From NCBI GenBank assembly GCA_013414765.1, contig CP058708.1:1545553-1609552 (forward strand): DNA of 64,000 nt, given 5' to 3'. Below, in pieces: positions 18,087 through 23,684 of this stretch. Origin of the DNA: Candidatus Accumulibacter cognatus (GTDB lineage: Bacteria > Pseudomonadota > Gammaproteobacteria > Burkholderiales > Rhodocyclaceae). Within the stretch, counting starts at the first letter, position 1, and each line of letters opens with the position of its first letter. The notes beneath the pieces are model-generated. The model ran no database searches and was not told the origin of the DNA. It worked only from the letters and a program-made list of their open reading frames with translations. A program made the translations under genes and the position numbers.

Positions 18087-18665
18087 TCACCGTTGGCGAT
18101 CCTCTTCGATCAGGTATGGCCACGCCATCCGCATGTAATAACCCATCGACCAGAGCGTCAGCACGGCCGCCACGTAGATCAACCAGACACCCCACTGATA
18201 GATATCGAGACCAAGCAACGGTGCGTAATAAAGCAGCATCGGGATGGCGGCCATCTGTGCAGTGGTCTTGATCTTGCCAATCATCGACACGGCGACACTC
18301 TTGTGGGCACCGATCCGCGCCATCCACTCGCGCAAGGCGGAAATCGTGATCTCGCGACCGATGATGATCATCGCCAGAGTGGCGTCGAGACGGCCGAGCT
18401 GGACGAGGATAATCAGCGCTGCGGCAACCATCAGCTTATCGGCGACCGGGTCAAGGAAGGCGCCAAATGCCGAAGTCTGCCGCCAGCGTCGTGCGAGATA
18501 GCCGTCAAGCCAATCGGTCATGGCAGCGGCAACAAAGATCAACGTTGCCGCACAGTCACGCCCGATACCCTGAATCCATCCCTCCGGAACGTAGTAGATG
18601 GCGATCAGAAGTGGGATCAAAATGATTCGCAGCCAGGTCAACAGGATGGGTATGTTCAGTGGCAT
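18087..18665 (-). CDS. pgsA: CDP-diacylglycerol-glycerol-3-phosphate 3-phosphatidyltransferase
   Basis: PgsA makes phosphatidylglycerol phosphate, the committed step to phosphatidylglycerol and cardiolipin. The 192-residue membrane protein starts MPLNIPILLTWLRIILIPLL and contains the CDP-alcohol phosphotransferase motif as DWLDGYLARRW, then FGAFLDPVADK, with the D-G-x2-AR-x8-G-x3-D-x3-D spacing. Its ATG shares one base with the uvrC stop (TGATG), showing translational coupling. The uvrC-pgsA-tRNA order is conserved across many proteobacteria. Confidence 0.96.
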   Translation of the reverse strand: MPLNIPILLTWLRIILIPLLIAIYYVPEGWIQGIGRDCAATLIFVAAAMTDWLDGYLARRWRQTSAFGAFLDPVADKLMVAAALIILVQLGRLDATLAMIIIGREITISALREWMARIGAHKSVAVSMIGKIKTTAQMAAIPMLLYYAPLLGLDIYQWGVWLIYVAAVLTLWSMGYYMRMAWPYLIEEDRQR

Positions 18666-20491
18666 CAGTGCAACGCTGCGTAAATTTTCTCGGCCAGCTC
18701 CCGACTGATTCCAGGAACTGCTGTCAGTTGGTCTATCCCGGCATCGGAGATTCCCTGCAGACCTCCAAAACGGGAAATCAGCGCCTTGCGCCGCTTGGGT
18801 CCGATACCGCCGATCTCTTCCAGGCGTGAACTGCGCGAAGCCTTGCCACGCCGAGCGCGATGACCGGAAACCGCGAAGCGGTGCGCCTCGTCTCGGACTT
18901 CCTGAATCAGGTGCAGGGCGTGATCTTCAGGAGACAATTGTAACGGCTCACGGCCATCTGCGAAAACCAGGGTTTCCAGGCCCGGCTTGCGCGTTTCTCC
19001 CTTGGCGACACCGAGCATCGGCAGGTGGCCCAGCCCGAGTTCAGCGAGGGCTGCGGCTGCAGCACTGACCTGGCTGCTGCCGCCATCGATCAGGATCAGC
19101 GTCGGTACGACGCCGTCACTGCGCAACAGCTTTTCGTAACGGCGGTGGACCACCTGCCGGATGGCTGCGTGGTCGTCACCGGGTTGGATACCCTCGACAT
19201 TGAAGCGGCGATATTCGGACTTGCGCATGCCACTTCCCTGATAGACCACACAGGCCGCCACGGTCGAATCTCCTTGGGTGTGGCTGATGTCGAAACACTC
19301 GATGCGTGCCTCCTTGCCGTCCTCGATGTCGAGACCCAGCGTCTGACGCAGCGCTTCAAGCCGTGCGCCCTGCCGTGACAGCACGCTGCGGCGCGCGTCG
19401 ATTGCCAGGCGGGCGTTCTGTTCGGCCATTTCGACCCAGACGCGCTGCAGGGTCAGTCTCGCTTTACCTACCCTGATCGGCTGCCTCGCCGTAGCACTGA
19501 GCCAATCAGCAAGCTCCTCATCAGACAGGGCCAGATTGACGAGAATTCTCGGCGGGATCGGGTGTAGGGGATAATGCTGATAGAGAAATGCAGTCAGCGC
19601 CTCAGGCGGCGACGAGGCCACGCAATCGACGGTACTGACCGGAAATTGCGGTCGGTCGCCGAGATGCCGACCACCACGAACCATCGCCAGGTTCACGCAC
19701 AGCAGGCCGGTATATTCAATGGCGACGACGATATCCACATCGCCCGCGTTGCCGCTCTCGACGTACTGTTTTTCCTGCACCTGCCGCAAGGACTGGATCT
19801 GGTCACGGTAGACCGCAGCCTGTTCGAAAGCGAGCCTGGCTGCCGCCTGATCCATGGCGGCCGACAGACTGCCGATCACATCCTGTTGTCGTCCCTGCAG
19901 AAACATTGCCGCCCTCTGCACATCCTCGGCGTAGCGCGCTGGCTCGACGAGTCCGACGCAGGGTCCGGAGCAACGCTTGATCTGGTACAACAGGCACGGT
20001 CGTGAACGGTTGTTGAACACCGAATTCTCACAGGTACGCAGACGAAACATTTTCTGAAGCAGATGGATGCTCTCGCGCACCGCCGGTGAAGACGGAAAAG
20101 GACCGAAATAGTCGGCATGCCGGTCGGTGGCGCCTCGGAAGAAACCCAGGCGCGGGTAATTGTCGTGCGTGAGGACGATGTAGGGATAGGACTTGTCGTC
20201 ACGAAAGAGAATGTTGTAGCGTGGCGACAGGCTCTTGATGAGATTATTTTCAAGCAGCAGCGCTTCGGCCTCGGAACGCGTCACGGTAGTCTCGACGCGG
20301 GCTATCTGTGCCACCATCATGGCGATGCGCGGGCTCGGAGGATTGTCGCGGAAGTACGAAGCAAGCCGCTTGCGGAGATTTTTTGCCTTGCCGACGTAGA
20401 GCACCTGACCAGCGCCGTCGAGCATCCGATAAACGCCCGGCAATTCGGTCACGGTGGCAAGCAGGGATTTGGCGTCGAAGGGTTCGGTCAT
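18665..20491 (-). CDS. uvrC: Excinuclease ABC subunit C
   Basis: UvrC makes the dual incisions in nucleotide excision repair. The N-terminal GIY-YIG nuclease domain is seen as GVYRMLDGAGQVLYVGKAKNLRKRL, a UVR motif follows (DVIGSLSAAMDQAAARLAFEQAAVYRDQI), the RNase H-like C-terminal nuclease starts near IECFDISHTQGD, and tandem HhH motifs end the protein (EEIGGIGPKRRKALISRFGG). The length, about 608 aa, is normal. Its start (ATG 20491 or GTG 20494) is only a few bases after the stop of the Wzz-recombinase fusion gene, so the two are coupled. Confidence 0.97.
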   Translation of the reverse strand: MTEPFDAKSLLATVTELPGVYRMLDGAGQVLYVGKAKNLRKRLASYFRDNPPSPRIAMMVAQIARVETTVTRSEAEALLLENNLIKSLSPRYNILFRDDKSYPYIVLTHDNYPRLGFFRGATDRHADYFGPFPSSPAVRESIHLLQKMFRLRTCENSVFNNRSRPCLLYQIKRCSGPCVGLVEPARYAEDVQRAAMFLQGRQQDVIGSLSAAMDQAAARLAFEQAAVYRDQIQSLRQVQEKQYVESGNAGDVDIVVAIEYTGLLCVNLAMVRGGRHLGDRPQFPVSTVDCVASSPPEALTAFLYQHYPLHPIPPRILVNLALSDEELADWLSATARQPIRVGKARLTLQRVWVEMAEQNARLAIDARRSVLSRQGARLEALRQTLGLDIEDGKEARIECFDISHTQGDSTVAACVVYQGSGMRKSEYRRFNVEGIQPGDDHAAIRQVVHRRYEKLLRSDGVVPTLILIDGGSSQVSAAAAALAELGLGHLPMLGVAKGETRKPGLETLVFADGREPLQLSPEDHALHLIQEVRDEAHRFAVSGHRARRGKASRSSRLEEIGGIGPKRRKALISRFGGLQGISDAGIDQLTAVPGISRELAEKIYAALH

Positions 20492-20496
20492 CACGG

Positions 20497-22584
20497 TCAG
20501 GCAGCGATCTCTCGCAAGGCGGGCATCAGCGGGTCGATCTCCGAAATTGTCCGACGTGGCCCCTGGGGTGCCAGATCGGCGTAGAAGGCCAGCGCTTCAG
20601 CGTTCGGACGTCCGACCAAAGAGGCAAGATCGGAGAAACGTACGCCCTGCCGCACCAGCCAGGCTACGCAGGTATGCCGCAGGGCCGCGGCGGTGACCTC
20701 CGCCGAGCGGGCAAGTCCGGCGTCGAAAGCGGCGCAGGCCAGTACCGATTCAATCTCATTCGGTGTGATTGGCGCTCCGACCGCGTCCGTCACCAAGGAA
20801 GCCTGCGCACCATTGCCCGGTGGCGACTGGCAGGCTGCCAGCCAGGCTGGGACCGTGAGCGTGCGCGGTGCGTGGCCCCTGACTCGCAGGGTGTTGGCCA
20901 CGGGATCGAGATCCTCCTGGCGCAGATCAATGGTCTCCTCCGGCGTCAACCCCATGAGCAGAACCGAAATGATGAAACGGACCTCGCCGACCGACGCCGT
21001 CAACAAGGCTTTCGCCTCGCTCTGGGTCAACTCGCGTGCAATCGATGACCTGGCAGGCAGCAGGACAGTGCTGTGCGCATTGGCGACCGGCAGGAGTTGC
21101 TGCGATTCGGTGGTCTGCTCCAGCAAGTGAGGCATTGCCCAGGGTTGCGGAATGACGACCGTCGTGCCTGCCGGAGCCTGCGTGGGCGGCGACCGGTTGA
21201 ACAGCTCGACGAACCACATGGCCAACAATCCGCAAACGAAAGCGGCGGCAACAACAAGCGCCGCATCCCTCAGATATGGTGGCCGAAAGGATGACTGGGG
21301 AACGCTCGCCAGTTCCACCAGATTGAGTGCAGGCAGCCGGCTGCGCTCACTGGCTTCGAGTTTGACCAGACGTTCCTGGGCTTCCCGGTTGGCCTTTTCA
21401 ATCTGGGCGAGGTCGTCTTCAAGTGACTTGGCCTGAGTGAAACGTTCGGAGTACGTTTGCACGCCTCGGCGTTGCTCGTTAATTTGTGCCTGCAGGTGGC
21501 TGACGGTTTCTCGTGCACTGGCCAATTCTTCCTGTGCCGTAGCAAGGGACGCCTGTCGACCCGCCGAACGCTGCCCCTCTATCTGCTGCTCCAGCTCTTT
21601 AAGACGTGCCTGCAGGGCCTTCGCACCGGGATCGATGCTCATGAATCTGGAAGTGTAGGTATGTTCCATATCGCGTATTTGCTCACGCAGAGCCGACGCT
21701 CGCTGCTCCATGTTGGCCAGCGTCGGATCATCCTTTGCCCGGCTGCTTCCGCTATTGCCGGCTGCAATAGCCTCCCTCAGGGTGCGCACATGCGCTTCGG
21801 CTAGCGCGGCCTTCTCGCTGGCCGTGGCAAGTGCGGTGGTGAGTCCTTTCATTCGACCCACGGCCTCGTTGCCATCGCGTTCGGATGACCACACGCCATG
21901 CTGGCTGCGAAAAGCCTCCAGGCGCGCACGGCGCTCGTGCACCGCCCGGTCGAGCAGCGCGGCCTCCGTACGCGCCTGTGTCAGAGTGACGCCGGTAGCG
22001 GCTTCGTAAGAAGCTTTCAACTCTTCACGATAGGCATCCAGCAAGGTATTCAGCGCTGCTGCGAGGAGTTCCGGGGGGGCACCGGTCGCCTGCAACTCGA
22101 CGATTTCAGTACCACTCACTGGCACCACCGTGATCATTTTCTGCAATTCTGTGACCTCGTCTGCCGCCCCAACCAGGTAACCCGCCTGAGCGAGCAACTC
22201 ACTTACCCTGGCCAGCAGGGGCCGGCTGGTGAGTACCTGCACCTGCGTCAGAAGATCGGAGGCAGTGTGCGGGGACGGTTCAGCGTTCTCCCTTGCTGAC
22301 AAGGAAGGGTGTGGTTCAATGCTCCCAGGGCTGATCTGTACCCTGGCCGTGGCACGGTATTCGGCAGGTCGGAGGAAATCCCAGGTGAGCCCGGTCAGTA
22401 GCACCACGCAAAATGCCATCAGGAAAACCCTGAGGCGCCGCCGATTACCTCGCCGGGCCAGTGCGGATTCTCCGCCATCAGAGTTCACAGAGTGTTCGAT
22501 AGAGCCATGCAAAGAAGAATGGATGTGCATCTTGCCATCGCCCAACAAAAAGATAAGAGAATCGGGCGCAGGTCGCGAGATCAT
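20497..22584 (-). CDS. Wzz/GumC-like chain-length protein fused to a degenerate tyrosine-recombinase domain
   Basis: This 695-residue protein has a Wzz-type N-terminal part: membrane helix at about 52-69, then LRPAEYRATARVQISPGSIE, a long periplasmic coiled coil, and a second helix at about 441-460. Where related proteins carry a BY-kinase, this one has a cytoplasmic segment (about 519-690) that reads like a tyrosine recombinase: LLMGLTPEETIDLRQEDLD, then VTAAALRHTCVAWLV and FYADLAP. The second arginine (R636), the following histidine (H637) and a candidate tyrosine (Y668) are kept. The first arginine is T547, the HxxR histidine is A, and the late H/W is R, so recombinase activity is doubtful. 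ATG 22530 is an alternative start. It lies between nagZ and uvrC. Confidence 0.75.
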   Translation of the reverse strand: MISRPAPDSLIFLLGDGKMHIHSSLHGSIEHSVNSDGGESALARRGNRRRLRVFLMAFCVVLLTGLTWDFLRPAEYRATARVQISPGSIEPHPSLSARENAEPSPHTASDLLTQVQVLTSRPLLARVSELLAQAGYLVGAADEVTELQKMITVVPVSGTEIVELQATGAPPELLAAALNTLLDAYREELKASYEAATGVTLTQARTEAALLDRAVHERRARLEAFRSQHGVWSSERDGNEAVGRMKGLTTALATASEKAALAEAHVRTLREAIAAGNSGSSRAKDDPTLANMEQRASALREQIRDMEHTYTSRFMSIDPGAKALQARLKELEQQIEGQRSAGRQASLATAQEELASARETVSHLQAQINEQRRGVQTYSERFTQAKSLEDDLAQIEKANREAQERLVKLEASERSRLPALNLVELASVPQSSFRPPYLRDAALVVAAAFVCGLLAMWFVELFNRSPPTQAPAGTTVVIPQPWAMPHLLEQTTESQQLLPVANAHSTVLLPARSSIARELTQSEAKALLTASVGEVRFIISVLLMGLTPEETIDLRQEDLDPVANTLRVRGHAPRTLTVPAWLAACQSPPGNGAQASLVTDAVGAPITPNEIESVLACAAFDAGLARSAEVTAAALRHTCVAWLVRQGVRFSDLASLVGRPNAEALAFYADLAPQGPRRTISEIDPLMPALREIAA

Positions 22585-22661: not shown

Positions 22662-23684
22662 TCAGGCCAGCAGGCTGCTGGCTGTCGCTACCCCGGTCCA
22701 GTATAGCCAATCCTGCTGCAGATCGGTCCAGTCGACAGCAGGGCTGGTCGGCACAAGACGCTCGACGCGCTGTGACCGCAATGGGTCGCCTGGAGGTTGC
22801 CAGTTCGCCAGTAATTCGCCGACCGCATCCGGCGAGTTGCATACCAGCAACAGGTCGCAGCCCGCATCCCAGGCAGCGGTACAACGCTCGCAGATGCCGC
22901 CGGCAACGCTGGCGCCGGCCATCGACAGATCGTCACTGAAGATGACGCCGTTGAAACCAAGCTGATTACGCAGCATGCCTGTCCAGAAACGCGAGAAACC
23001 TGCAGGACGCGGGTCCAGCCGCCGATAGATGACATGTGCCGGCATCACCGCGTCGAGTTCGAGCCGGCGGTAGGGTTCGATGTCTGGCGCCAGTTCTTCG
23101 AGTTCGCGTTCGTCGACCGGCAGCGCGACATGCGAATCGGCCTCGACCCAGCCATGCCCCGGAAAGTGCTTTCCGCAGGCGGCCATCCCGGCTCGGTGCA
23201 GGCCTTCGATCAGCGCACCGGCCAGCCGCACCACCGCAACCGGGTTGGCGTGCAACGAGCGATCGCCGATCACGCTGCTGCGCCCCCAGTCGAGATCAAG
23301 TACTGGCGTGAATGACAGGTCGACCCCGCGCGCGCGCAATTCCGCGGCGAGAACATAGCCAATCCCGCGCGCAGCCAGCCAGGCTGCTTGTGGGTCGCGG
23401 TCCCATTGCTCGCCGAGACGGCGCATCGCCGGCAAGCGGGTGAAACCGTCACGACAGCGTTGCACCCGGCCCCCTTCATGGTCGATGGCAATCGGCAGTG
23501 CCGGTGAGCGCAAGGCATGCACCGCAGCCGTGAGTTGCTCGAGTTGCTGCGGCGAGGCGTAATTGCGTGCGAACAGGATCAGGCCACCGACCAGAGGGTG
23601 GCACAAGCGCTCTTGTTCAAGGTCGGACAATTGCAGCCCGGCAATGTCGATCATCAGCGGGCCAAGCGGGAGTCGGGTATTCAT
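22662..23684 (-). CDS. nagZ: Beta-N-acetylhexosaminidase NagZ
   Basis: NagZ, a cytoplasmic glycoside hydrolase family 3 enzyme, removes N-acetylglucosamine from anhydro-muropeptides during cell wall recycling. The 340-residue protein has the expected GGLILFARNYASPQQLEQL, LPIAIDHEGGRVQR and KHFPGHGWVEADSHVALP stretches; the last contains the catalytic His/Asp loop, and IFSDDLSMAGA holds the nucleophile aspartate. Its ATG overlaps the acpS stop (ATGA). It belongs to the long minus-strand cluster. Confidence 0.96.
   Translation of the reverse strand: MNTRLPLGPLMIDIAGLQLSDLEQERLCHPLVGGLILFARNYASPQQLEQLTAAVHALRSPALPIAIDHEGGRVQRCRDGFTRLPAMRRLGEQWDRDPQAAWLAARGIGYVLAAELRARGVDLSFTPVLDLDWGRSSVIGDRSLHANPVAVVRLAGALIEGLHRAGMAACGKHFPGHGWVEADSHVALPVDERELEELAPDIEPYRRLELDAVMPAHVIYRRLDPRPAGFSRFWTGMLRNQLGFNGVIFSDDLSMAGASVAGGICERCTAAWDAGCDLLLVCNSPDAVGELLANWQPPGDPLRSQRVERLVPTSPAVDWTDLQQDWLYWTGVATASSLLA

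Follow-up and report, generated by a model that had tools for sequence, protein, structure and literature searches.

The window, a stretch of 64,000 nucleotides of Candidatus Accumulibacter cognatus (contig CP058708.1, positions 1,545,553 to 1,609,552), holds a gene whose product is predicted to join a polysaccharide co-polymerase to a domain related to tyrosine recombinases. The host genome (G000) is 5.17 Mb long and forms a single contig. The gene, its parts and its two neighbours are listed below by window coordinates.

18665..20494, reverse strand: uvrC, whose GTG start follows the fusion stop codon by 2 bases, or by 5 when the next ATG is taken as start
20497..22584, reverse strand: fusion gene for a 695-residue protein (co-polymerase plus predicted pseudo-recombinase), ATG start, stop codon included
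22369..22437, reverse strand: transmembrane helix 1, residues 50-72, by hydropathy
21280..22368, reverse strand: periplasmic Wzz-type region with a long coiled coil, residues 73-435, by TIGR03007, EpsF and Wzz matches and alignment
21196..21279, reverse strand: transmembrane helix 2, residues 436-463, by hydropathy
21049..21195, reverse strand: cytoplasmic linker, residues 464-512, poorly conserved (mean pairwise identity 0.18, raised dN/dS)
20500..21048, reverse strand: predicted pseudo-recombinase domain, residues 513-695, by profile matches, profile-profile comparison and tree
20944..20946, reverse strand: codon T547, place of the first catalytic Arg (Arg in 0/22 relatives)
20686..20688, reverse strand: codon A633, place of the HxxR histidine (His in 0/22)
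20677..20679, reverse strand: codon R636, second catalytic Arg, kept (19/22)
20608..20610, reverse strand: codon R659, late His/Trp place (His in 1/22)
20581..20583, reverse strand: codon Y668, nucleophilic Tyr position (Tyr in 18/22)
22662..23684, reverse strand: nagZ-like open reading frame, named by reading its sequence; lies upstream of the fusion here and in Ca. A. vicinus

By predicted topology and family matches the protein is a PCP-2-like polysaccharide co-polymerase, with two membrane helices around a periplasmic coiled coil. A proline-containing stretch closes the periplasmic region just before helix 2. The first-pass annotation had described two membrane helices and a Wzz-type coiled coil, and both were recovered, the helices by hydropathy and the coiled coil through Wzz-type family matches. 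It had also given the cytoplasmic recombinase-like domain about 175 residues: the domain is present, and its size is corrected to about 183 residues. Hydropathy marked a third hydrophobic stretch inside this domain (residues 526-546), which lies near a helix of both low-confidence structural models described below.

A search for proteins pairing a Wzz-type with an integrase-like domain, as the first-pass annotation had suggested, returned at least 22 full-length relatives, all lacking the first catalytic Arg and the HxxR histidine. Full-length relatives were present in 9 of 101 genomes in the relatives search, and in at least 10 of 399, 6 of 369 and 3 of 398 genomes in the order, class and phylum searches; the search sets overlap, with G000 counted in each, and the last three counts are lower bounds because scoring was limited to three candidates per genome. 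In total at least 22 genomes carry the fusion, from 11 genera and seven family codes (f1, f16, f6, f218, f106, f142, f189). All 22 fall inside the window's class; within its genus, 6 of 28 genomes have the fusion. One of the 22 members, L039, has its N-terminus cut by a contig end. The closest named record, from Ca. Accumulibacter vicinus, is 91% identical over residues 2-695. The fusion had no match at E 1e-8 among 72,556 plasmid records, and among the matches listed no paper described a co-polymerase/recombinase fusion in its title or the start of its abstract.

The N-terminal half of the window protein matched TIGR03007, the chain-length determinant of the XrtA system, best among curated families (E 4e-12; 45 bits, where the cut-off is 279). 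EpsF matched at E 5e-9, also under its curated cut-off, and Wzz (PF02706) at E 0.0046 (17.7 bits against 25.5). Across the family TIGR03007 was found at E ≤ 0.01 in 22/22 members, PF02706 in 11/22 and GNVR in 2/22. A quick tree placed 21 fusion N-halves on one side of a branch from 35 other co-polymerase rows (SH-aLRT 99); three of these 35 were duplicates, and L039 was left out of this tree only.

Profile matches to the C-terminal domain were individually modest. Residues 513-671 matched the XerA family NF040815 (E 5e-6, under cut-off) and residues 520-672 matched Phage_integrase (E 0.0015; 18.8 bits against a Pfam cut-off of 27.1). At E ≤ 0.01 the Phage_integrase model was matched by 18/22 of the fusions. 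Profile-profile comparison by hhalign of the 22 domains with 18 recombinases gave a probability of 99.3% (E 8.3e-21, 170 columns), and each fusion clade alone gave 97.4-99.4. Fifty column shuffles reached at most 1.5%, the reversed alignment 0.28, and comparisons of the domain with BY-kinases, the N-half and the linker 0.04-0.17. These shuffled, reversed and unrelated-domain controls ruled out chance similarity. Residues 513-695 are, on these comparisons, homologous to the catalytic domain found in tyrosine recombinases of the Xer type, and the recombinase-like C-terminal domain of the earlier reading was thereby confirmed. The comparison set of 18 was drawn from 26 examined loci. Three loci with wrong or fragment frames (L016, L017, L093) were left out, as were five integrases from the window's genome that were weaker and more divergent (L086, L091, L092, L094, L095); among the 18 retained, L018 and L104 have short frames.

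When the 22-domain profile was run against PDB sequences, 14 matches were obtained at E ≤ 0.01, 12 of them named recombinase, integrase or Int. The best were XerC-like 4a8e (1.8e-13), XerA (1.9e-12) and XerD (1.8e-8); one further match was the phage protein Gp33, which we take to be an integrase. Another PDB chain, 9i5v_14, is labelled ribosome-associated inhibitor RaiA (401 aa) and matched over residues 140-285 at E 2.7e-5: either its label is wrong or it is a further case of a recombinase domain put to use outside DNA. The integrase model had 16 matches in the window's genome, some of them fragments, with 13 over the Pfam cut-off and the fusion gene below it. Three matches in pieces at G000:C1:2505934-2506549, one with an internal stop, look like a broken tyrosine recombinase.

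AlphaFold2 run with two sequences returned low-confidence models (pLDDT 48 and 45). Foldseek with the first of these gave 22 weak matches, 19 of them recombinases (best E 0.036, TM 0.24), and no match at E ≤ 0.001. The recombinase fold is therefore predicted from sequence homology.

Several of the catalytic residues have been replaced. In the comparison set the first Arg, the His and Arg of HxxR, and the Tyr were invariant (18/18). At the first Arg position the 22 fusions have no Arg (T in 14, A in 3, S in 2, G in 2, K in 1); the HxxR motif has His in 0/22 and Arg in 19/22, and the late His/Trp position has His in 1/22 and Trp in 0/22, with Arg in the window. The nucleophilic Tyr is present in the window and in 18/22 fusions and absent in four, and R574 is kept in 21/22. 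The first-pass annotation had noted that some catalytic residues were replaced, and this holds: T547 stands for the first Arg, A633 for the HxxR His and R659 for the late His, with R636, H637 and Y668 kept, a mapping backed by joint alignment with the 18 recombinases. The three f6 members (L037, L038, L039) have lost all tallied catalytic residues, including second Arg to His and Tyr to Leu, and L061 has also lost the Tyr. Positive charge has been lost as well. Net charge of the domain ranges from -11 to +1 and is negative in 21/22, against +4 to +17 for the comparison catalytic regions (positive in 18/18). Between helix 2 and the domain there are 40-59 residues, short for a recombinase core-binding domain, and no profile matched a core-binding domain in the linkers of the 22 members. 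We predict from these residues that the C-terminal domain is a catalytically dead pseudo-recombinase.

In a tree with the 18 recombinases, the 22 C-terminal domains lay on one side of a branch with 100/100 support. Each half therefore forms one clade, which fits one fusion event, and the fusion family probably owes its recombinase domain to a single acquisition by its common ancestor. Distances in the two halves were correlated (r 0.87; 0 of 5000 Mantel permutations), and mean pairwise identity was 0.34 in both the N-half and the C-domain, compared with 0.18 in the linker. For seven hand-chosen pairs the C-domain dN/dS was 0.22, 0.24, 0.32, 0.22, 0.18, 0.20 and 0.09, with dS saturated in the seventh. 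The N-half gave 0.04-0.26, and the linker 0.32-1.0 in its six computable pairs; in 5/7 pairs constraint on the C-domain was slightly weaker than on the N-half. The f6 domain had a dN/dS of 0.18 and 0.20 in two pairs, despite loss of every tallied catalytic residue. These ratios indicate a pseudo-recombinase domain evolving under purifying selection. Five positions are conserved in the fusions and unconserved in the recombinase set (D621 in 21/22, Q646 in 21, R/K649 in 22, D/E652 in 22, P688 in 22), and their conservation suggests a new interface.

In the window the fusion gene and uvrC are probably co-transcribed. The gene had been placed inside a conserved nagZ-uvrC-pgsA run, which did not hold. 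The pair uvrC-pgsA was kept in 16/16 genus genomes examined, but of 14 fusion-free genus sites with upstream sequence available, only one (G020) had nagZ no more than 1.5 kb upstream of uvrC. At these 14 sites, with genes named by reading frames alone, the position upstream of uvrC is taken by an opposite-strand EarP-like gene in nine and by nagZ in one (L128); the rest have a long opposite-strand frame (L124, L125), a MutS-like opposite-strand gene (L126) or nothing clear (L116). Among the stretches examined, the fusion lies between nagZ and uvrC only in the window and in its closest relative, Ca. A. vicinus (G026), and neither nagZ nor uvrC was found in the other stretches around fusion genes. 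A conserved operon with nagZ and uvrC was ruled out, since the neighbours of the fusion differ between genomes.

These neighbours are mostly unrelated, with some common to L071 and L073 and others to L075, L076 and L081. In a Pfam scan of 20 selected neighbours, the polysaccharide genes were a glycosyltransferase at G701, a Wzx-like gene at G360 and, one gene from the fusion at G114, a UDP-sugar dehydrogenase, whose cluster also has a member close to the fusion in G159. As neighbours vary between genomes, the fusion gene appears to be an orphan that moves. In G075 a transposase-domain (DUF772) gene at L028:7170-8066 is directly upstream of the fusion, which hints at how such a gene may be moved.

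Systems of the PEP-CTERM/EpsH type are tied to exopolysaccharide loci in the available excerpts of PMC1569441. An exosortase over the Pfam cut-off was present in 22/22 fusion genomes and in 18/20 of a hand-chosen comparison set. A separate TIGR03007 gene over cut-off was present in 21/22 fusion genomes, G159 being the exception, and in 12/20 of the comparison set (genus 12/14, f16 0/5, f6 0/1; fusion genomes of f16, 5/5). The link is weak inside the genus because most genus genomes have TIGR03007 anyway. In the evenly drawn order sample, TIGR03007 at E ≤ 1e-70 was found in 9/10 fusion genomes versus 100/389 others (Fisher p 5e-5, kinship ignored); 100 of the 109 TIGR03007 genomes there lack the fusion. 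The fusion gene sits outside the XrtA cluster. In a simple scoring against a consensus, no sigma-54 (Prs) promoter stood out upstream of the window gene, 0.38 of shuffles being equally good; of the 21 members that could be scored, L009 (0.08) and L036 (0.04) were the exceptions. The promoter scan gave no general support for membership in the Prs sigma-54 regulon. Judged from co-occurrence, the fusion is probably an accessory co-polymerase of the XrtA/PEP-CTERM exopolysaccharide system.

Our preferred reading, which we hold with some confidence, is that a recombinase fold that has lost its activity stands in for the BY-kinase and serves XrtA/PEP-CTERM exopolysaccharide as a scaffold that needs no phosphorylation; the mechanism is inferred. 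The dead domain would act as a protein-protein scaffold in contact with adjacent subunits or with a partner in the cytoplasm. Through this binding, by analogy with what is proposed for pseudokinases of other co-polymerases, it would steer how the co-polymerase ring assembles and comes apart, with no need for phosphorylation. The pseudo-recombinase domain may thus be a binding module controlling co-polymerase assembly. The first-pass annotation had offered a binding module or a tyrosine to be phosphorylated. The former is supported in direction, with the first Arg and the HxxR His gone in 22/22 and new residues conserved; the latter fails as a general role, because four of the 22 relatives that keep the domain lack the Tyr, three of them in the f6 clade, where dN/dS is about 0.2. 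In Xer recombinases the C-terminal tail is passed to the neighbouring subunit. More speculatively, and with odds we would put on the low side, this ancestral ring-forming habit was taken over for the XrtA/PEP-CTERM co-polymerase ring, the tail with P688 being exchanged in a new phosphorylation-independent class. If this were true, a DNA enzyme would have become a membrane-bound structural regulator.

A residual active-site role is conceivable because R636 and Y668 persist in most members: the Tyr might be a substrate of a separate BY-kinase, or the Tyr/Arg pair might support some other reaction. Retention of Tyr in 18/22 and Arg in 19/22, in a family with neither the first Arg nor the HxxR His, speaks for this. 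We nevertheless consider it unlikely, as three f6 members lack both residues and L061 the Tyr, the f6 domain remains constrained (dN/dS 0.18, 0.20), and packing could also preserve both residues. The domain might instead bind DNA uncut and tether a chromosomal site, for example a dif-like one, to the membrane exopolysaccharide machinery. Xer homology, the second Arg (19/22) and R574 (21/22) would fit such a tether, but net charge has turned negative in 21/22, the first Arg is gone throughout, and the place of the core-binding domain is taken by a 40-59 residue linker with no profile match; this is distinctly improbable.

A chance-joined integrase relic drifting to loss would account for the decayed catalytic residues, for a dN/dS somewhat above that of the N-half in 5/7 pairs and for a domain with no defined partner. 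Equal conservation of the two halves, dN/dS well under 1, the new conserved residues and the lack of an internal stop in any of the 22 matched stretches make this very improbable. Least credible, to the point of being negligible, is an assembly error joining two separate genes: nothing was found in its favour, the same full-length frame recurs in 22 genomes from 11 genera, and the tree of each half shows a single fusion clade. The misjoin that the first-pass annotation had raised is refuted by these relatives, and the fusion is genuine.

If the scaffold reading is right, a site-specific recombinase domain lost catalysis and DNA binding and was kept across families as a regulatory module of a membrane protein, in the position held elsewhere by a kinase that is proposed to control the cycling of co-polymerases. 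The domain would be a third kind of cytoplasmic controller, after kinase and pseudokinase, would make testable which features of the domain the co-polymerase needs, and would add a new component beside the poorly understood XrtA/PEP-CTERM matrix system. Automatic annotation could mislabel such fusion genes as integrases.

The fusion resembles PCP-2a co-polymerases of the Wzc type in having two membrane helices, a periplasmic coiled coil and a C-terminal cytoplasmic domain. In PCP-2a that domain is a BY-kinase, whereas in the fusion it is a degenerate recombinase domain; hhalign against nine kinase domains gave 0.17%, and no BY-kinase with P-loop and Tyr-rich tail was found in the alignment of the 22 or among the window's Pfam and NCBIfam matches. 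The earlier statement that the recombinase-related domain stands where relatives have a BY-kinase agreed with the other co-polymerase frames longer than 700 residues in the N-half tree, 9/12 of which (8/11 distinct genes) have a P-loop kinase pattern there; L044, L064 and L083 are long frames without it, and two of these, L083 (738 aa) and L064 (741 aa), are possibly fused BY-pseudokinases.

In the available excerpts of PMC11986026 and PMC12004946, the octamer of Wzc-type co-polymerases forms and dissociates, driven by phosphorylation of the kinase tail. The excerpts of PMC12004946 also propose that the dead kinase EcpK of Myxococcus xanthus acts on its PCP-2 by binding alone. Like EpsV/EcpK as presented there, the fusion has a catalytically dead cytoplasmic module for which phosphorylation-free guidance of a co-polymerase is proposed; unlike it, the fusion would carry a fused recombinase relic, whereas the kinase relic is on a separate protein in the excerpted account of EpsV/EcpK (PMC12004946). 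The fusion also differs from the TIGR03007 determinant, both in the score of its N-half (45 bits against 279) and in the separate TIGR03007 gene of 21/22 fusion genomes. With XerC, XerD and XerA it shares catalytic-domain homology over about 170 columns; unlike them it lacks the first Arg, the HxxR His and a detectable core-binding domain, and its domain is acidic and predicted to be membrane-anchored, whereas XerC, XerD and XerA are basic.
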